Source: an uncultured Acidipila sp.
GTDB taxonomy: Bacteria; Acidobacteriota; Terriglobia; Terriglobales; Acidobacteriaceae
NCBI GenBank assembly: GCA_937859835.1
Contig: CALMAN010000120.1
Coordinates: forward strand, 1-34,421
Direction of reading: 5' to 3'
DNA: 34,421 bases
Shown here: positions 3,496 to 18,328 of the stretch, in pieces
Numbering within the stretch: position 1 is the first letter of the stretch
Layout: each line of letters begins with the position of its first letter
The notes under the pieces: model-generated
Database searches by the model: none
Told to the model about the DNA's origin: nothing
What the model saw: only the letters and a program-made list of their open reading frames with translations
Translations under genes and position numbers: made by a program

Positions 3496-3617
3496 GTGGG
3501 GTCTCCTCCCTTACTCAGAGGCTACGAAGCAGGCAAAGCGTTGGCCTGCGGCAAGCAGCCGGCATCCATCCCGTACGCCCGGAAGGTTGGCCGCGGCAGT
3601 GTGGTTGAATACCTGGT

Positions 3618-4445
3618 GTGATCCCCGACTTTGAAATAGGCCCGGTTCCGGTCGGCGCGGGCCAGCTCTTCCTCATCGCCGGCCCCTGCGTCATCGAGTC
3701 CGAAGCGCACGCGCACCGAATCGCCGAGAGCATCGCCCGCATCACTGCCGGGCTCAGCATGCCATACATCTTTAAAGCTTCTTACGACAAGGCGAACCGC
3801 ACCTCGGTGACCAGCTTTCGCGGTCCGGGCCTCCGGGAAGGCACGCGCATCCTCCGCAGCATTGCAGAGTCGACCGGCCTTCCCGTTCTCACCGATGTGC
3901 ACGAGCCCGCGCACTGTGAGATCGCCGCCGAAGGCGCGGATGTTCTGCAGATCCCTGCCTTTCTGTGCCGCCAAACGGATCTCCTGGTGGCGGCGGGCCG
4001 GACCGGCCGCGCGGTCAACGTCAAGAAAGGCCAGTTCGTCGCCCCGGCCGACATGCAGCACGCGGTAGAAAAGATCGGCACCACCGGCAACGAGCGCATC
4101 TCGCTGACCGAGCGCGGCACCACTTTCGGCTATGGCAACCTGGTCGTTGACATGCGTTCCCTGCCGGTTCTGCGCCGGCTCGCGCCTGTGGTGTTCGACG
4201 CCACGCACTCGGTCCAAATGCCCTCGGCAGCAAACGGCGTGTCCGGCGGCCAACCCGAGTTCATCCCGACCCTTGCGCGCGCTGCTGTGGCGGCCGGGAT
4301 CGACGGCATCTTCCTTGAGGTCCACGACAATCCCGCCGAGGCAAAGTCCGACGGCGCCAACGCACTCCGCCTCGACCTGCTCGCGCCTTTGCTGGAAACT
4401 TTGCTGGCCCTCCATGCCCTGGCGCCTGCCCGCCCAGGTCACTAG
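3618..4445 (+). CDS. kdsA: 3-deoxy-D-manno-octulosonate 8-phosphate synthase
   Basis: Condenses phosphoenolpyruvate with arabinose 5-phosphate to KDO 8-phosphate, a precursor of the LPS inner core, in the cytosol. The start is GTG at 3618; the conserved FEIGPVPVG follows at once and the ribosome-binding site is weak. The length of 275 residues is normal. IAGPCVIESE, FKASYDKANRTS, TDVHE, FLCRQTDLL, VKKGQF and DATHSVQ are all present. The residues that bind metal in class II (metal-dependent) enzymes, known from Aquifex (Cys11, His185, Glu222, Asp233), line up with Cys24, His197, Glu234 and Asp245 here. The enzyme is therefore predicted to be metal-dependent, unlike E. coli KdsA, which has Asn at the Cys position. 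Its presence argues for a Gram-negative envelope. Confidence 0.97.
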   Translation: MIPDFEIGPVPVGAGQLFLIAGPCVIESEAHAHRIAESIARITAGLSMPYIFKASYDKANRTSVTSFRGPGLREGTRILRSIAESTGLPVLTDVHEPAHCEIAAEGADVLQIPAFLCRQTDLLVAAGRTGRAVNVKKGQFVAPADMQHAVEKIGTTGNERISLTERGTTFGYGNLVVDMRSLPVLRRLAPVVFDATHSVQMPSAANGVSGGQPEFIPTLARAAVAAGIDGIFLEVHDNPAEAKSDGANALRLDLLAPLLETLLALHALAPARPGH

Positions 4446-4536
4446 GCCCGCCTGAGGCACTCCGCCGGCACCCTCACCACGCTGCCGTCACAGGGGCAAC
4501 GAGGCACGCGAGCAGCCGCTACGTTGCTCCCGGAAC

Positions 4537-4565
4537 AAAAAAAGGGCCCCTCATACAGAGGGGCC
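4537..4565 (-). terminator. Rho-independent terminator of the OmpA-like gene
   Basis: Read on the minus strand, a perfect 8-bp stem GGCCCCTC/GAGGGGCC with a five-base loop (4545-4565) is followed directly by a run of seven T (4543-4537). It lies 54 bp beyond the stop of the OmpA-like gene. A second hairpin (CTCTCGT, loop TGAG, ACGAGAG; 4580-4597) sits between stop and terminator and may protect the 3' end of the message. Confidence 0.9.
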
Positions 4566-4618
4566 AATCTGCCTTGGTTCTCTCGTTGAGACGAGAGCCT
4601 GGTGCGGTGCCGCGCGCT

Positions 4619-5521
4619 CTACTGGGTAGGAGCGCCGGTCGGGGATGCGGTGCCGGCGGGTGCATTGCCCGTCCCTGCTCCCGCATTGCCCGTTGCCGCT
4701 AAACTGTTCTGCATCACGCTGACGCGGACGGCGCTGCCACTGGGCAGTGCAATCCCGTCCTGCGACTGCGCGTCGCCAAGCGCGATCTGGTGAATCTTGT
4801 ACACCGGCACCTGGTGCTGCTCTACCAGGTAGCGCACCACGGCGTCCGACATCCGCTGGGAGCTTTCCAGGCCCGCCTGTCCACGCAGGTGGGAGTAGCC
4901 CGAAACTTCGACCACGTAACCCTTTTGACCCTGCAGCTGCATTGCCACCTGGTCGAGCGCCTGCTTGGCCCGGTCATTCAGCATGGTCTGTCCGGTCCGG
5001 AAGCGGAGCTCGGTGTCGGAAACCTTCTGGTACTGGTCCAGCCCTGCGACCGTGCTGTTGAGCTGGGTTGTGCGCGTCGATGCCTGCTGGGCCAACTGCT
5101 GCGCTTGCCCCGCGGTGGTGTTGGCCGTTGTAGCTGTTTGGCTGGCCTGGTCCGCTGTGGACTGAGCCTGCCGGATGCCGGTCCCGGTCTTCTCATCCAA
5201 GGCCTGGATATCCCGGCTGTTCTTTGCCTGCAGCTGATCGAGTTCGTTCAGCCGGCCCTTTACCGGGTCGAGCTGCCGGTTTACCCACTTCTTGCGGGCA
5301 AACGGATTGAGGTGGCCCCAGAACCCTTCCTTTGACTTCGTTTGCAAGGGTGTGCCGGTTGCGTAGGTGCTGTTGTCCGCGGCGTTCATGTTGCCGGTAC
5401 CGGTACTCTGGGCCGTCTGAGCCGTTGCCTGTCCTTGGGTCGATTGTGCGGCAGCCGGAAAAGCCGGGGATGCTGCAAGCAGCAAAGCTGCGCTTGCCAG
5501 TGCTAAGACTCTCTGATTCAT
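4619..5521 (-). CDS. OmpA-family periplasmic/outer-membrane protein
   Basis: A 300-residue exported protein. Residues 1 to about 25 form a Sec signal peptide (basic start, Leu/Ala core, AAAQ cleavage region). A Thr/Gln/Ala-rich linker follows, then a short WGHLNPFARKKWVNRQLDPV segment and a helical, coiled-coil-like Gln/Ala/Thr-rich stretch (about 85-165). The C-terminal region (about 170-270) looks like an OmpA domain: LRFRTGQTMLNDRAKQALDQ, VEVSGYSHLRGQ, QRMSDAVVRYLVEQ and VYKIHQIALGDAQ. This domain binds peptidoglycan in known members. The tail is Gly/Ala/Thr-rich. There is no N-terminal beta-barrel and no lipobox Cys, so a soluble, peptidoglycan-associated protein is the likeliest role. 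GAGG lies eight bases before the ATG. Confidence 0.85.
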   Translation of the reverse strand: MNQRVLALASAALLLAASPAFPAAAQSTQGQATAQTAQSTGTGNMNAADNSTYATGTPLQTKSKEGFWGHLNPFARKKWVNRQLDPVKGRLNELDQLQAKNSRDIQALDEKTGTGIRQAQSTADQASQTATTANTTAGQAQQLAQQASTRTTQLNSTVAGLDQYQKVSDTELRFRTGQTMLNDRAKQALDQVAMQLQGQKGYVVEVSGYSHLRGQAGLESSQRMSDAVVRYLVEQHQVPVYKIHQIALGDAQSQDGIALPSGSAVRVSVMQNSLAATGNAGAGTGNAPAGTASPTGAPTQ

Positions 5522-11234: not shown

Positions 11235-11316
11235 GGCACGATAGTAGCAAGAGCGAGCGCCTTTTGTTATGTAAATCCTAGACAAGCACCCCCTTGAGTA
11301 CGGTACGAGGGGGATA

Positions 11317-11345
11317 TGGACGGCCGCCCGGTGCTTCCCTAGAAT
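11317..11345 (+). promoter_or_regulatory. Possible promoter for tldD
   Basis: TGGACG (11317-11322) and TAGAAT (11340-11345) with 17 bp between them; the -10 matches five of six consensus positions. The start of transcription would lie about 40 bases before the tldD ATG. An inverted repeat CCCCCT/AGGGGG (11289-11294 and 11308-11313) lies just upstream and could be an operator. Confidence 0.4.
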
Positions 11346-11392
11346 CGGAACGCCTCCGGTTCCATCCAATCGAGGTGCCTCCTTCATCCCCT

Positions 11393-12835
11393 ATGACAGT
11401 CGACCAGCCATCCTTTTTCTCCGCGAAGTTCGGCATCACCCCAGCCCTGATCGAGCGCTGCCTGGGGGAGGCGCTCGCAGCGGGGGGTGAGTACGCGGAG
11501 CTGTATTTTGAGTCCGTCGCCTCCACCTCGCTCGGGGTCGACGAGTCCCTGGTCAAGTCCGCGGCGCAGGGCGTCAGTGCCGGATGCGGCATCCGGGTGC
11601 TCGCGGGCGAGCGTACCGGCTACGCCTACACCGATGAGCTTTCCCCGGAGCGGCTCCTCCGCGCGGCACGCACGGCGGCGCTGATTGCCAGCGGGCCCGC
11701 CAAACAGTCCGTGGTCGGCCTTGGCTCAAGTCTCAGGGAGGCGCGTCCGCGCTTGTACCCGGCGCCGGCAGCCGAGCTCGATCCGGAGCTGAGCACCAAG
11801 CTCGCACTGGTCATGCGGGCCGACACCGCCGCGCGCGCCCACGACCGCCGCATCACGGAGGTGCGCGCCTCGTATGCCGATGAAGTGCGGCGCATCCTGG
11901 TCGCGGCTTCCGACGGTACCTACACAAGCGATACCCAGCCGATGGTCCGGTTAAATGTGTTTGCGCTGGCCAAGGATGGCAACAAAACCGCGCGCGGCAA
12001 CGCGGGTGGCGGGGGCCGTGTGGAGCTTTCGTACTTCGAGGGTGCCAAGTCGCCTGAGTACTTTGCGCGCGAGGCAGCCCGGCAAGCACTGCTCCAGCTG
12101 AACGCGGTTCCTGCTCCGGCCGGCGATATGGAAGTAGTCCTGGGGCCGGGCTGGCCGGGCGTGCTGCTCCACGAAGCCGTTGGCCATGGCCTGGAAGCGG
12201 ACTTCAACCGGAAAAAGACTTCGGCCTTCTCGGGCATGGTCGGCCAGCGTGTCGCCAGCGACAAGGTCACGGTTGTCGACAATGGAACCATCCCCTCGCG
12301 ACGCGGCTCGATCCACGTAGACGACGAGGGTGCCGACTCGCGGGAGAACGTGCTGATTGAGAACGGGATCCTGCGCGGCTACATGAACGACAAGCTCAGC
12401 GCGAAGCTGATGGGGACCGCGAACACCGGAAACGGCCGGCGCGAAAGCTACCAGCAGATGCCCATGCCGCGCATGACAAATACCTACATGCTGGCTGGCG
12501 AGGACGAGCCGGAGGACATCCTCCGCTCGGTCCGGCGCGGTTTGTACGCGGTCAACTTCGGTGGGGGCTCGGTAGACATCACGAGCGGCAAGTTTGTTTT
12601 TTCCGCGTCCGAGGCGTACCTGATCGAGGACGGCCGCGTCACCGCGCCGGTACGCGATGCAACCCTGATCGGCAGCGGGCCGGAAGCGCTGAAGTATGTG
12701 TCGATGGTCGGGCACGATCTGGCGCTCGACGAGGGCGTGGGCAACTGCGGCAAGCAGGGGCAGTGGGTCCCGGTCGGCGTCGGCATGCCCACGATCAAGC
12801 TGGATCGCATGACCGTCGGGGGTACAGGAAGCTAG
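11393..12835 (+). CDS. tldD: TldD metalloprotease subunit
   Basis: A 480-residue subunit of the TldD/TldE heterodimer, a cytosolic metallopeptidase that degrades unfolded peptides and matures peptide-derived products such as microcins and PQQ-like precursors in other bacteria. I start it at ATG 11393 (MTVDQPSFFS), since the upstream frame to 11294 is unlike the family; the Shine-Dalgarno (GAGGTG) is distant. The metal site HEAVGHGLEADF has His260, Glu261 and His265. DNGTIPSRRGSIHVDDEG, MPRMTNTY and the terminal GNCGKQGQWVPVGVG segment with its cysteine are the other hallmarks. tldE follows after 153 bp on the same strand, as is common. Its natural substrate here is unknown; no obvious precursor peptide is adjacent unless the poly-His peptide is one, which is speculation. 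Confidence 0.95.
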   Translation: MTVDQPSFFSAKFGITPALIERCLGEALAAGGEYAELYFESVASTSLGVDESLVKSAAQGVSAGCGIRVLAGERTGYAYTDELSPERLLRAARTAALIASGPAKQSVVGLGSSLREARPRLYPAPAAELDPELSTKLALVMRADTAARAHDRRITEVRASYADEVRRILVAASDGTYTSDTQPMVRLNVFALAKDGNKTARGNAGGGGRVELSYFEGAKSPEYFAREAARQALLQLNAVPAPAGDMEVVLGPGWPGVLLHEAVGHGLEADFNRKKTSAFSGMVGQRVASDKVTVVDNGTIPSRRGSIHVDDEGADSRENVLIENGILRGYMNDKLSAKLMGTANTGNGRRESYQQMPMPRMTNTYMLAGEDEPEDILRSVRRGLYAVNFGGGSVDITSGKFVFSASEAYLIEDGRVTAPVRDATLIGSGPEALKYVSMVGHDLALDEGVGNCGKQGQWVPVGVGMPTIKLDRMTVGGTGS

Positions 12836-12988
12836 TTCGATCCCCAGCAACCCCCTGCTCGGGACGCAAGCCGGGCCGTGCAGGATCAGCCGTTCCCTTC
12901 CATCGCATCCGGCCGACGCGCAGCAAAGAAAGCATCACCGCTTCGCAGCGTAGGCCACGCACACTTTCCCGCAAGGAGCTTTCGCTCG

Positions 12989-14383
12989 ATGGCAGCAGCA
13001 ACGAGAAACCTACCGGCGTACGCCTCGCAGCTCGCCGGGCAAGCGCAAGCGCTTGTGCAGCAGGCGCTGCAGGCCGGCGCCAGCGACGCGGAAGTGATCC
13101 TCCGCGAAAGCGACGAGTTCGATGCGCAGGTGCGCATGGGCGAGCTGGAAACGCTGAAGAACTCCGGCTCGCGGGGCGTGGGTTTACGCGTCCTCCTCGC
13201 CGGGGATGAGGGTCAGCGGGTCGGCAGCTCTTCTTCGAGTGACTTGACCCCCTCCGGGCTTGGGTACCTGGTGGCCAGCGCGATCGCGCTGGCGCGGATT
13301 TCGTCTCCTGACCCCATGCAGGGGCTCCCTGAGCCGTCTGCGTTTGGAGCCTTTGACGGAGAGCTGGATCTCTACCATGAGAGCGTCTACTCGCTGCCCG
13401 ACAAGGAACGCATAGAGTACGCGCGGCGCGTCGAAGCCGCCGCGCTCGGGGCGGACGCGCGCATCACCAACAGCGACGGCGGCAGCTTTACCGCAGCCAC
13501 AAGCCTCAAGGTTCTGGCCAACTCGCGCGGCTTCGTGGGGGCGTCGCGGGGTTCGTACTGCGGGCTTTCGGCAGTCCCTATCGCGACGGGCCGGAACGGC
13601 GAGATGCAGCGCGACGGCTGGTCGTCAAGCGCCCGCACTCTTAGCAAGCTTGAGTCGCCCGAGCAGGTCGGCGCCGAGGCTGCGCGCCGCACCCTGCGCA
13701 GGCTCGATGGCCGCCGTGTGCCTACCCAGCGCGTTCCCGTTGTGTTCGCGCCCGAGGTGGCGCGCTCCATCCTTGGCGCCATGGCCGACGCCGCAAATGG
13801 CGACAGCATCTATCGCGGCGCCAGCTTTTTCACCGGCAAGCTTGGGGCGCAGGTCGCTGCCTCCTCCATCACGGTCATCAACGACGGCACCCTGCCCGGC
13901 CTGTTTGGGTCCACTCCGTTTGACGGAGAAGGTCTGCCCACGCGCCGGACGGTGCTGGTTGAAAACGGAGTGCTTCGCTCCTACCTGCTCAACACCTACA
14001 CGGGCCGCAAGCTTGGTCTCCCGAGCACTGCCAGCGCTGCGCGCGGGCTCACCGGCAACCCCGGCATCTCGACGCACAACCTTTTTCTGCCCGCGGGGGA
14101 GCAGACCCCCGAGCAGATCATCGCGGCGATCCCGCAGGGGCTGTACCTGACCGAGTTCCTCGGCCGGGGCGTCAACATGGTCACCGGGGACTACTCGCGC
14201 GGCGCATCAGGCCTATGGATTGAAAACGGGGAGCTGGCCTTTCCCGTACAAGAGATCACCGTCGCCGGCAACCTGAAGGAGATGTTTCAGAACATCACTG
14301 CCATTGGCAACGATCTTCTGTTCCGCTCCGCAACAGCCTCTCCTACCCTCCGCATCGACGGATTGACCATCGCCGGCGCGTAG
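12989..14383 (+). CDS. pmbA: TldE/PmbA metalloprotease partner subunit
   Basis: A 464-residue partner of TldD. The start at 12989 (MAAATRNLPAYAS) has AAGGAG ten bases upstream; the frame is open from 12878, but that part is not family-like. Segments of the PmbA family are clear: GVGLRVLLAGDEGQRVGSSS, ITNSDGG, VPVVFAPEVARSILGAM, DGTLPGLFGSTPFDGEG and VNMVTGDYSRGASGLWIENG. It lacks the HExxxH motif of TldD, as expected, because TldE is the non-catalytic half. Downstream are two inverted repeats before the GGDEF gene. Confidence 0.95.
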   Translation: MAAATRNLPAYASQLAGQAQALVQQALQAGASDAEVILRESDEFDAQVRMGELETLKNSGSRGVGLRVLLAGDEGQRVGSSSSSDLTPSGLGYLVASAIALARISSPDPMQGLPEPSAFGAFDGELDLYHESVYSLPDKERIEYARRVEAAALGADARITNSDGGSFTAATSLKVLANSRGFVGASRGSYCGLSAVPIATGRNGEMQRDGWSSSARTLSKLESPEQVGAEAARRTLRRLDGRRVPTQRVPVVFAPEVARSILGAMADAANGDSIYRGASFFTGKLGAQVAASSITVINDGTLPGLFGSTPFDGEGLPTRRTVLVENGVLRSYLLNTYTGRKLGLPSTASAARGLTGNPGISTHNLFLPAGEQTPEQIIAAIPQGLYLTEFLGRGVNMVTGDYSRGASGLWIENGELAFPVQEITVAGNLKEMFQNITAIGNDLLFRSATASPTLRIDGLTIAGA

Positions 14384-14500: not shown

Positions 14501-14564
14501 TGCGCACTCACGCACTTTCATGTGAATGGGCGAAGTCGCACGTCGACGCGGTGAGGCGCTTTCC

Positions 14565-16322
14565 ATGGAAGCAGAACCGATTGTAGCGGTGGAGGAAGCA
14601 GGAAGCTGCTTGCCTCCGCAAGCCAATGCCCGCGAATACCTTCACCCGCCGCGCGAGGGGTACCTGGTCTTTGGCCGCACGCAGGAGATCCGGTTTGCAA
14701 GCGATAGCCTGCGCGCCGTGCTCCAGCTGCCCTCTACGGCGAAAGTGGTTGGCGAGAGCCTGCTGCCGCTGCTCGCTTCCGTTTCCGGCCCGGACCCCCA
14801 AACGTCGGCGTCCGTCGTGCAATGGCTTGCGCGCCAGACAGCGGAGGGGTCCGGCACGGAGCTGCCTCCGTTTGCGCTGCTGACCGCCCCCGGCGCCAGT
14901 ACCGTGTACATCAGCCTAGATCCGGTTGGAGACGGCTACTGGGTCGCCACGTTTCGGGACGTCACTTCGACGTTGCAAGCCGAAAGCGAGATGGTCGCCA
15001 TCGCTGCCCGCGACCACCTCACCGGGATCGGGAATCGCGCCTTCTTCGAGAACCGTTGCGACGGCATGCTTGCCCGCCTGGCTGCGCGGGAGGTCGATTC
15101 GGCAACCGTACTGTTTCTTGACCTGGACCGGTTCAAACTGGTTAACGACACCCTGGGCCATGCAATTGGAGACGCGCTGCTCCAGCTGGTGAGCGAGCGC
15201 CTGAAGAAGTCGGTGCGCGAAGCCGACACCGTTGCGCGGCTGGGCGGCGACGAGTTCGCGATCCTGCTGGTGTCCGCAACCGGCAGAGAAGCAGCCGCCG
15301 CTCTGGCGACACGCATCATTGACATGATCCAACGGCCGTATCTCATTGATGGCCACGTGGTACACGTCGGCGCAAGTATCGGGATCGCCATGGGACCGGA
15401 AGATGGAAGCACCCGTGAGGCCCTGGTCCGGAGCGCGGACCTCGCGCTGTACCACTCCAAAGCCACCGGCCGCGGGGTGTTTCACTTCTTCGACGCTTCC
15501 ATGCAGCAAAGGGCGCAGCGACGACACTCGCTTGAAGTGGATTTGAGAAAGGCACTCGTTCTTCGGCAGTTTGAGCTCCACTACCAGCCGCAGATTGATG
15601 TAGAAAGCGGGGCGGTGATCGGCCTCGAAGGGCTGCTCCGCTGGCACCATCCCGTGCGCGGTATGGTGCTTCCCGGCGACTTCATTCCGCTGGCCGAAGA
15701 GCTGGGGCTGGCCGTGCCAATCGGCGAATGGGTTTTGCGCACCGCGTGCCGCGAAGCGATGCGCTGGCCGGAGTCGGTCACCATCGCGGTGAATGTGTCA
15801 CCCTTGCAGTTTGGAATGGGAAACTTCGCCGATTCCGTGCAGCGCGCCCTGGGCGCGAGCGGCCTGCCCGGCCACCGGCTCGAGATCGAAGTCACAGAAA
15901 GTATCCTGTTGCGTGATGGTCAAACGGTTTTGGCGACCTTGCAAGCATTGCGGGCCATTGGTGTTCGCGTCGCCATGGACAGGTTTGGCATTGGCATCGC
16001 TTCGCTGAGCCAGCTCGTCAACTTCCCTTTCGACAAAATCAAGATCGATCGATCGCTGATCACTCTCAACCAGGACGACGTAAAAAAGCGGGCCATCGTC
16101 TGCGCTATCTCGGCGCTCGGGCACAGCCTTGGGATTTCCACGCTGGCCGAAGGCGTGGAAACAGCCGAGCATCTGGCACACGTGCGGGAAGGAGGCTGCC
16201 ACTCTGTCCAGGGCTTCTACTACAGCCAGGCCGTACCTTCGGGCGAGGTGGCCGATATGGTCTCGCACCTGTTTCCCGCAAGGGCGCAAGCGAAGGCACT
16301 CGGAAGCGAGGGGGAAGCGTGA
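14565..16322 (+). CDS. PAS-GGDEF-EAL protein, likely diguanylate cyclase with a degenerate EAL domain
   Basis: A cytosolic c-di-GMP protein; no membrane segment. I prefer ATG 14565 because GAGG lies eight bases before it; ATG 14526 is the alternative. In numbering from 14565, residues ~25-140 look like a PAS sensor (YLVFGRTQEIRFASDSLRAV ending FRDVTST). The GGDEF domain has DHLTGIGNR, DLDRFK and an intact GGDEF (227-231), with the product-inhibition site RxxD (218-221) correctly five residues upstream. The EAL domain reads EGL at 355-357. The metal-binding DDFGTG loop reads DRFGIG (472-477), so the second Asp is Arg; VNVS, ExT, KID and EGVE remain. Cyclase activity is likely and phosphodiesterase activity doubtful. 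The stop overlaps the BLUF start. Confidence 0.92.
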   Translation: MEAEPIVAVEEAGSCLPPQANAREYLHPPREGYLVFGRTQEIRFASDSLRAVLQLPSTAKVVGESLLPLLASVSGPDPQTSASVVQWLARQTAEGSGTELPPFALLTAPGASTVYISLDPVGDGYWVATFRDVTSTLQAESEMVAIAARDHLTGIGNRAFFENRCDGMLARLAAREVDSATVLFLDLDRFKLVNDTLGHAIGDALLQLVSERLKKSVREADTVARLGGDEFAILLVSATGREAAAALATRIIDMIQRPYLIDGHVVHVGASIGIAMGPEDGSTREALVRSADLALYHSKATGRGVFHFFDASMQQRAQRRHSLEVDLRKALVLRQFELHYQPQIDVESGAVIGLEGLLRWHHPVRGMVLPGDFIPLAEELGLAVPIGEWVLRTACREAMRWPESVTIAVNVSPLQFGMGNFADSVQRALGASGLPGHRLEIEVTESILLRDGQTVLATLQALRAIGVRVAMDRFGIGIASLSQLVNFPFDKIKIDRSLITLNQDDVKKRAIVCAISALGHSLGISTLAEGVETAEHLAHVREGGCHSVQGFYYSQAVPSGEVADMVSHLFPARAQAKALGSEGEA

Positions 16323-16750
16323 ACGGCGGACTTTTCAAGATTCTCTACTGTAGTCGAAACTACATTGAAGGCGAACAGGCGCAGCAGGATGCCGAGATCA
16401 GCCAAATCCTCCACACCGCGCGCGCAAACAACAGCCGGCAAAGCATCACAGGCGCACTCCTTTTCAACTCCGGCTTCTTTGCTCAGGTACTGGAAGGACC
16501 TCGTCCGGCTATCGAGAAACTCTTCGAAAAAATCCAGTGTGATCCCCGGCACGGCGACGTCACGGTCCTGGATAGCGGCAATGCGGCGACACGCGACTTT
16601 CCCGAGTGGGCCATGGCGCATGTGCAAACGCCGTCCGATGTGCATGCATGCGGTGTGACCGCGGCCCTGGACCAGGCCTTTCTGAATCCGGGTGAGTCAG
16701 GCCGCGACGTACTTACCTTGCTTCGCACCCTTCTGGTTCAGGGAGACTAG
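16319..16750 (+). CDS. Single-domain BLUF blue-light sensor
   Basis: A 143-residue flavin-binding photoreceptor. The GTG start shares bases with the TGA stop of the preceding gene (GTGA), so translation is coupled. BLUF residues are complete: Tyr10 (LYCS), Asn38 (ARANNSRQSITGALL), Gln56 (GFFAQVLEG), Trp97 and Met99 (FPEWAMAHV). These correspond to Tyr21, Asn45, Gln63, Trp104 and Met106 of AppA, which create the light-dependent hydrogen-bond switch. The protein ends after a short helical tail, so it has no output domain of its own. Gene coupling suggests that it acts in trans on the GGDEF-EAL protein, as separate BLUF proteins do with EAL partners elsewhere. Confidence 0.93.
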   Translation: MNGGLFKILYCSRNYIEGEQAQQDAEISQILHTARANNSRQSITGALLFNSGFFAQVLEGPRPAIEKLFEKIQCDPRHGDVTVLDSGNAATRDFPEWAMAHVQTPSDVHACGVTAALDQAFLNPGESGRDVLTLLRTLLVQGD

Positions 16751-17098
16751 CGGGGATCAGCGCGACCGGCTCGCTGCGCAGCGTCGAAGCCGGCAAGTCC
16801 CGCAGGATGCAGGCAGCCAGGGATGCAGGGAAAGCGGGCCGGGCGAATCGCTGGTCGCAAAGCGTTCCATCGCGCAGCTGCCGCTTGCGCTCGCGATGAG
16901 CGTCCCGCGCGGGCGGCAAGGGCTAGTCACCCCACAAAGCGACCGCTTCGGGAGCCCCACAAAGCGACCAGTCCGGGAGGCCGTGCAGAGTGGAAACAAC
17001 ACCGGGACCTGCCTGGTCGCCTGGGGCCGCTTGTAGCCGGCAGCTGCGGCCCGCGCCGTGCGACATGCGCTCCGCTTTGCCGTACGCTGGGTTCAGCC
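16751..17098. other. Intergenic region between BLUF and UvrC-like genes
   Basis: A 348-bp stretch without a supportable gene. It contains a 2 x 25-bp tandem repeat (16930-16979) and otherwise GC-rich sequence. The UvrC-like frame is open through part of it, but the translated segment is arginine/alanine-rich and unlike the family. No terminator with a T-run is seen after the BLUF gene. Confidence 0.6.
16930..16979. repeat. Two tandem 25-bp repeats
   Basis: Two adjacent units (16930-16954 and 16955-16979) each start CCCCACAAAGCGACC and end CGGGAG, with three mismatches in the middle. They lie about 120-170 bp before the UvrC-like start. Repeated sites like this can bind a regulator, but no function is shown. 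Confidence 0.8.
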
Positions 17099-18328
17099 GT
17101 GTTTTCGCACCAGATTCCTTTTGACCCCCGGGCGCCTTCCCTGGCGCTCGAGCAGTTGCCGGCCCGAGCCGCGGTGTTTTCTTTGCGCGGCGAAGCAGGC
17201 GAACCCTACCTCAACCGGACCGCCGACCTGCGACGAAGGCTCGCGAAGCTGCTGACGCCCGCGCCCGCGCAAGGCAAGCGCTTGCAGCTCGCAGGCCTGG
17301 TGCGCCACATTGCCTGGACGGAAACGGCCTCGGACTTTGGGGCGCAGCTCTTGCTGTACCGGGCGTCGAGCGCCGCCTTCGGGGGCCGTGGAGCGCAGCG
17401 CATGCACCTCCATGCGCCGTATTTTGTGAGAGCGGGCATGCGCAACCGCTTCCCTCGCATCTGGGTCACCAACCATCTTCCGTCCACCGCGCTTGACGAC
17501 CTATTCGGACCATTCCCCTCGCGCCATGCCGCCGAACGCTACGCCGAGCAGGTGCTCGATCTCCATCTCCTACGCCGCTGCTTCCAGGATCTCGAACCCG
17601 ACCCGCAGTTTCCCGGCTGTATCTACTCTGAGATGAAGAAGTGCCTGGCGCCCTGTTATGCCGGGTGTTCCGATGAGCGCTACGCCCAGGAGGCGGCTGC
17701 CGTGCACGCTTTTCTGCGCACGAGGGGCCTTAGCCTCCTGGAGACACTCGCCGGAGAACGCGAACGGGCCAGCCAGGCACTCGACTTTGAGTCCGCCGCC
17801 GCCGCGCATGCGCGCTTCGGCAAAGCCGAAGCAGTCGCCGCACTCGCGCCTGAAGGAGCGTTTGCCTTAAGCGCGCAGCACGGGGTGCTGGTACAGCCCA
17901 GCACCGAGCCAGACCAGGTCGCGCTCTATGGGCTTCATCGCGGTCTCTGGACCGGGCCGGTGCCGTTCTCGGTTCTGGGGATGCGCTTACCGAATGAGCA
18001 GTCCGGGTCGAGCTCGCTGTTTGCCCATCCCGCCGCGTTCGCGCCGGTACCGATGGCCTCCTCCGGTTTGGCCGAACCCGCCCAAACGCCCGATGACCGC
18101 TTGCGCGGAGCGCTTGTTGCGCTCACGCGGGAGCAGGGGCAGAGCGGAAAGGCTGAGCTGGCCGAACACCAGGCGCTCTTTGCCCGCTGGTACTTCCGCC
18201 CGCAAACCAAGCGCGAAGGAGAGCTGGTCTGGACCGACGCGGGTGCGCAGGCGATTCCAGCGAAGCTTTTGCTGCGGGTTTGCGCCCGCGTCTACAAGGC
18301 GCACGCCGACCGGCATGCGCCCGCATGA
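17099..18328 (+). CDS. UvrC-like protein with degenerate GIY-YIG domain
   Basis: A 409-residue protein from GTG 17099, chosen because (M)FSHQIPFDPRAP resembles the start of UvrC-like proteins I recall from Acidobacteria; the frame is open to 16823. AAVFSLRGEAGEPYLNRTAD (25-44) occupies the place of GIY-YIG but lacks the GxY and YIG/YVG signature; the LRRRL arginines remain. The middle region matches UvrC: FGPFPSRHAAERYAE, then Cys161, Cys174, Cys182 and Cys186 (RRCF, PGCIYSEMKKCLAPC), the spacing of the four iron-sulfur cysteines of UvrC. ERERASQALDFESAAAAHAR is a UVR-type helix. The RNase H-like and HhH domains of true UvrC are absent. Role unknown: perhaps a DNA-repair accessory or a structure-binding protein without incision activity. 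Confidence 0.85.
   Translation: MFSHQIPFDPRAPSLALEQLPARAAVFSLRGEAGEPYLNRTADLRRRLAKLLTPAPAQGKRLQLAGLVRHIAWTETASDFGAQLLLYRASSAAFGGRGAQRMHLHAPYFVRAGMRNRFPRIWVTNHLPSTALDDLFGPFPSRHAAERYAEQVLDLHLLRRCFQDLEPDPQFPGCIYSEMKKCLAPCYAGCSDERYAQEAAAVHAFLRTRGLSLLETLAGERERASQALDFESAAAAHARFGKAEAVAALAPEGAFALSAQHGVLVQPSTEPDQVALYGLHRGLWTGPVPFSVLGMRLPNEQSGSSSLFAHPAAFAPVPMASSGLAEPAQTPDDRLRGALVALTREQGQSGKAELAEHQALFARWYFRPQTKREGELVWTDAGAQAIPAKLLLRVCARVYKAHADRHAPA

Follow-up and report, generated by a model that had tools for sequence, protein, structure and literature searches.

A conserved BLUF and GGDEF-EAL gene pair in a soil acidobacterium and its possible link to light-tuned c-di-GMP synthesis

The window analysed here, a 34,421-nucleotide stretch of DNA from a soil acidobacterium (uncultured Acidipila sp.), carries the gene of a BLUF sensor together with that of a c-di-GMP enzyme, both on the forward strand, as are all window features given below. 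The first gene (14565..16322) encodes a PAS-like-GGDEF-EAL protein and the second (16319..16750) a single-domain BLUF protein of 143 amino acids. As the first-pass annotation of the sequence had it, the two reading frames overlap by GTGA (16319..16322), the stop codon TGA of the former (16320-16322) being interlocked with the start codon GTG of the latter (16319-16321), which is preceded by GAGGGGG; such a junction points to translational coupling. The upstream open reading frame (14526-16322) contains two in-frame ATG codons, giving 598 amino acids from 14526 or 585 from 14565, and the latter, already chosen as the start in that annotation, reasonably looks the better candidate because GTGAGG lies about 8 nt upstream of it. 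Residues of this protein are nevertheless numbered from 14526. A scan for promoters and terminators returned nothing. Two genes of the PmbA/TldD metallopeptidase family lie just upstream (11294-14383, forward strand), and a 501-amino acid open reading frame downstream of the BLUF gene (16823-18328, forward strand) has a sub-threshold UvrB/UvrC motif (E 0.12) and possibly encodes a UvrC-related protein.

The BLUF protein matches the Pfam family BLUF (PF04940) with an E value of 5.2e-29 and 100.6 bits against a curated cut-off of 25, has 2byc (a BLUF-family blue-light receptor), AppA and BlrP1 among its relatives in the PDB, and retains all photocycle residues (Tyr10, Asn38, Gln56, Trp97 and Met99). 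Judged by this match and these residues it is photochemically complete, in line with its original description as a complete single-domain BLUF, and the key photochemistry residues are likewise intact in all 24 BLUF proteins of the pairs and fusions described below.

The partner protein begins with a putative PAS-like region (residues 44-153; 14655..14984), whose Pfam PAS_7 match is weak (19.3 bits, below the cut-off of 27; E 0.0013), and which is missing in the other three acidobacterial paired proteins. In the AlphaFold (AF2) model (mean pLDDT 85), an N-terminal domain is followed by a helix leading into the GGDEF domain and by the GGDEF-EAL tandem; residues ~43-146 form an ordered alpha/beta domain with a PAS-like order of elements. 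Among solved structures the nearest are MorA, PA0575 and PA0861, the last a PAS-GGDEF-EAL protein to which Foldseek aligns the chain over its full length; the Pseudomonas tandems of the MorA and MucR/PA0575 type, although the closest structural counterparts of the tandem in the window, have no BLUF link in the matched entries and an intact wild-type DDFG. The GGDEF domain (15003..15473; Pfam E 8.7e-44) keeps all listed catalytic residues of a diguanylate cyclase (D199, N207, D208, the GGDEF motif at 240-244 and K312), and an RxxD inhibition site, READ, is found at residues 231-234 (15216..15227); the residue table thus bears out the intact GGDEF and RxxD noted at first, the latter being present in the window protein only among the four acidobacterial paired proteins.

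The EAL domain (15540..16229; Pfam E 9.9e-68) departs from the consensus at two motifs, of which one can be set aside. EGL in place of EAL (15627..15635) had been counted as a defect, wrongly, as the catalytic, metal-binding Glu368 is retained; the same EGL is also found in the Granulicella homolog L038. The lesion lies in loop 6 (15978..15989), where DRFG replaces DDFG, as noticed from the start: D485 is kept while D486 is an arginine (codon AGG at 15981-15983), so that one of the two loop-6 aspartates of active EAL domains is lost, and the loop as a whole reads DRFGIG, with a further change of T to I. All other catalytic residues (E, R, N, ExTE, K, EGVE and Q) are in place, the retained set comprising E368, R372, N423, E455, E458, D485, K506, D508, E542, E545 and Q562. 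Both DDFG aspartates coordinate the active-site metal in BlrP1 (PMC3989770), and the second is a Mg2+ ligand in the M2 site of PA3825 (PMC5301497); because of this role, which rests on structural descriptions, no report of mutants of the second aspartate alone having been found in the literature searched, an arginine at 486 should remove the M2 metal site. Since every EAL catalytic residue except D486 is kept, the domain may still have some residual c-di-GMP hydrolysis.

A BLUF alignment scan of 84,980 species genomes, plus plasmid records, recovered 20 further adjacent GGDEF-EAL and BLUF pairs (21 with the window) and three single-ORF GGDEF-EAL-BLUF fusions (L048 and L056 from Sphingomonas, L054 from an alphaproteobacterial MAG). 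Besides the window, pairs in Acidobacteria are found in Granulicella aggregans (L040), a Granulicella MAG (L038) and a Terriglobus MAG (L039), all Acidobacteriaceae, and a wider hunt through ~400 genomes of the family, 400 of the phylum and two whole genera gave no more than these four in total. The others belong to Alphaproteobacteria (Lichenibacterium, Devosia, Roseomonas and kin, Rhizobium and kin, Aureimonas, Skermanella, Methylobacterium and Erythrobacter) and to Salinicola. BLUF is itself uncommon in the family of the window genome (20 of 298 genomes) and is absent from the only further genome of the genus, which is 88% complete. Four-nucleotide overlaps recur in L040, L044, L055, L064 and L197. 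The three fusions have the same domain order as the window pair and belong to the same family, with a short flexible linker at the place of the GTGA overlap—in the L048 model a disordered stretch of ~20 residues joins EAL to BLUF where the window has its gene junction—but they are single polypeptides and their EAL is fully conserved. Distances among BLUF proteins correlate with those among their GGDEF-EAL partners (Mantel r 0.64, 0 of 5000 permutations), to which common species history contributes. With 21 adjacent pairs, three fusions and correlated divergence, the two genes are, by this comparison, a conserved and old unit, and the pairing seen in the first-pass annotation is indeed kept in relatives, mostly in Alphaproteobacteria. 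On a plasmid of Rhizobium sp. CC-CFT758 (L201, 1879-3480), the BLUF gene is open and the GGDEF-EAL gene beside it lies in several frames and looks broken.

A phylogeny of 74 GGDEF-EAL proteins places all BLUF-linked members but L085 and L102 in one group (SH-aLRT 93) among alphaproteobacterial paralogs, and in it the four acidobacterial paired proteins form a clade (99) adjoining a Rhodospirillales MAG from a lichen, L041 (89). A smaller tree recovers the acidobacterial clade at full support (99.9/100), wider branches being weak there. In searches of five non-acidobacterial genomes, the window protein was best matched by a BLUF-linked protein in four, and its best non-BLUF match among 120 genomes of the family has 44-46% identity; the window genome and its Granulicella and Terriglobus relatives are members of one family. 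The nesting of the acidobacterial clade within alphaproteobacterial BLUF-linked proteins suggests, as the simplest reading, that the pair passed as a unit from Alphaproteobacteria into Acidobacteriaceae. An AU test rejected a tree in which all acidobacterial GGDEF-EAL proteins are held together (p 0.008), a result that fits transfer but is weak and unspecific as to where the pair came from, because the constraint also forces the non-BLUF proteins together.

The distribution of catalytic damage across this family is uneven. An alignment of EAL loop 6 places aspartate at the second position in 70 of 70 comparison proteins (17 other pairs, three fusions and 50 unlinked proteins), which, with the recurrence of the pairing, speaks against a chance observation, and its loss in three of the four acidobacterial pairs agrees with what had been proposed from the window alone: the residue is R in the window, S in L038 and L040 and D in L039, with codons AGG, AGC, AGC and GAC, respectively, and GAC in neighbours. 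Because AGC is shared by L038 and L040 and is one base away from AGG, the simplest path would be a single old change of D to S before the window and the two Granulicella proteins diverged, followed by S to R in the window. That D486R is recent decay or a base error is unlikely, L038 and L040 having AGC at the same codon. Further EAL losses affect five residues in L040 and two in L038, and L039 keeps DDFG and has K for T in ExTE; none of the four has a damaged GGDEF. No member outside Acidobacteria has an altered loop 6, and one other EAL change is found there (E542G in L083), whereas it is GGDEF that is damaged in L050, L051, L054 and L059. A Fisher test of EAL damage gives p 0.008, with the four acidobacterial rows coming from one clade and not being independent events. 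In L059 (Rhizobium sp. S152, 3539-5414), a mirror case of the window, GGDEF is almost worn away and EAL fully kept.

Ratios of EAL to GGDEF branch lengths, computed on a fixed tree, are 0.58 for the window tip, 1.04 for the acidobacterial interior, 0.81 for the rest and 0.35 for tips with a damaged GGDEF. A general relaxation of the window EAL can thus be discarded, its branch not being accelerated. So slow a branch indicates a domain that is not decaying, and continued constraint of this kind would suit docking, ligand binding or remaining catalysis.

A split BLUF and EAL module is already known from the characterised PapA/PapB of Rhodopseudomonas palustris, in which, as in the window, a short BLUF protein is separate from an EAL-containing c-di-GMP enzyme; the two work as a complex, PapB acting on PapA within a heterotetramer (PMC8846402). 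The window has the same layout of a short BLUF gene beside the gene of an EAL protein, conserved in relatives, and by analogy its products may form a putative direct BLUF-enzyme complex, for which the fusions are indirect support. PapA, however, is described as a solo EAL phosphodiesterase, whereas the window partner has a second catalytic domain, an intact GGDEF, and an EAL damaged in loop 6. The BLUF-EAL phosphodiesterases BlrP1 and BldP share with the proposed module the blue-light control of an EAL domain by BLUF, but are fused, with BLUF at the N terminus, no GGDEF and an active EAL, as opposed to separate genes with BLUF downstream. In a 2022 review, those BLUF photoreceptors that are tabulated for c-di-GMP networks raise phosphodiesterase activity (PMC8846402), and no BLUF-controlled diguanylate cyclase is described in the literature searched, where a mechanical route from BLUF to GGDEF is likewise without precedent.

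These data are compatible with a mechanism in which the BLUF protein would be a detachable sensor of the GGDEF-EAL protein, most likely docking on the EAL domain like PapB on PapA and like BLUF in the fusions, so that light would move the BLUF C-terminal helices and change the GGDEF-EAL dimer. The family, whose alphaproteobacterial members appear always to keep the EAL hydrolase, would have reached Acidobacteriaceae from Alphaproteobacteria, and in the acidobacterial branch loop 6 would then have lost its second metal ligand (D to S, then R in the window) with the GGDEF cyclase intact. Because this ligand was lost while GGDEF stayed intact, blue light would most likely tune c-di-GMP synthesis, the EAL serving as a docking and possibly c-di-GMP-binding domain. 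Given four known acidobacterial pairs, one of which (L039) keeps DDFG, we consider such a coupled module an even proposition, in which contact, EAL inactivity, cyclase activity and the light effect with its sign are the steps that we infer. The first-pass annotation had suggested synthesis as the light output: this gains from the conserved pair, the complete BLUF, GGDEF intact in four of four acidobacterial proteins and loop 6 damaged in three of four, and loses in that EGL is no lesion, split BLUF and EAL modules were already known, most family members keep a full EAL and RxxD is not conserved.

How far the EAL domain is disabled separates this proposal from that of an ordinary blue-light phosphodiesterase like PapAB, in which the EAL would tolerate D486R and light would drive c-di-GMP breakdown. 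The latter draws on the otherwise complete EAL catalytic residues, the slow EAL branch, and the fact that EAL is the output in PapA and in all alphaproteobacterial relatives; it appears improbable, however, as solved EAL structures show the missing aspartate to be a ligand of metal 2, a positively charged arginine there matches none of the 70 comparison proteins, and the same codon has lost its aspartate in two relatives, one with further losses. The EAL could instead be an inactive c-di-GMP receptor whose main output is protein-protein contact, with a GGDEF that is constitutive or governed by the PAS-like domain and I-site, and a BLUF whose light state alters only partner binding or the c-di-GMP affinity of the EAL. 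An EAL that is altered yet conserved, together with the intact RxxD site and the PAS-like domain, which could be the main input of the window cyclase, would agree with this; inactive EAL receptors are known, and coupling between BLUF and EAL is two-way (PMC3989770). This is a minority possibility, slightly ahead of a phosphodiesterase, since, of the other three acidobacterial members, two start almost directly at GGDEF and, with no N-terminal domain ahead of it, have BLUF as their evident input. Finally, the genes may merely be co-expressed, with BLUF acting on a different partner, as could be argued from the many partners of BLUF proteins in general and from a close lone BLUF relative (L026) with no GGDEF-EAL neighbour; against 20 other pairs, three fusions and correlated divergence, this seems very improbable.

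The coupled, synthesis-tuning module may thus plausibly be read as a split system like PapB-PapA with its output possibly switched from c-di-GMP breakdown to synthesis. The fuller claim, that this is a natural blue-light-gated diguanylate cyclase with a separate BLUF subunit, the phosphodiesterase polarity having been reversed after transfer by disabling the hydrolase and keeping the cyclase, mirroring the cyclase-disabled alphaproteobacterial members, is held more tentatively, somewhat below an even chance. If true, control of a cyclase by a BLUF subunit would give this kind of sensor the opposite output, would show that the sign of a signal from a two-domain enzyme can be reversed through the loss of one half, and would provide a two-part blue-light tool to raise c-di-GMP. 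Direct tests of this are within reach in the family, which spans fused and split members as well as cyclase-dead and hydrolase-damaged ones. Two candidate PilZ receptors and other GGDEF and EAL proteins indicate that c-di-GMP is in use in the window genome.

BLUF genes also occur in other settings. In other Acidobacteriaceae (L003, L004, L007, L017, L132 and L135), BLUF adjoins a short EAL-only gene as in PapB-PapA, with two BLUF genes in tandem in L132, and in another acidobacterial family (L152, L154 and L155) BLUF and EAL share a single ORF as in BlrP1. The lone BLUF of L026 (6755-7186, reverse strand), 43% identical to that of the window, is flanked by a lytic transglycosylase/TPR gene and an ECF sigma factor gene. 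On a plasmid of Skermanella mucosa (L202, 1826-5697), the GGDEF-EAL and BLUF pair lies directly before the bacteriochlorophyll genes bchE and bchJ.
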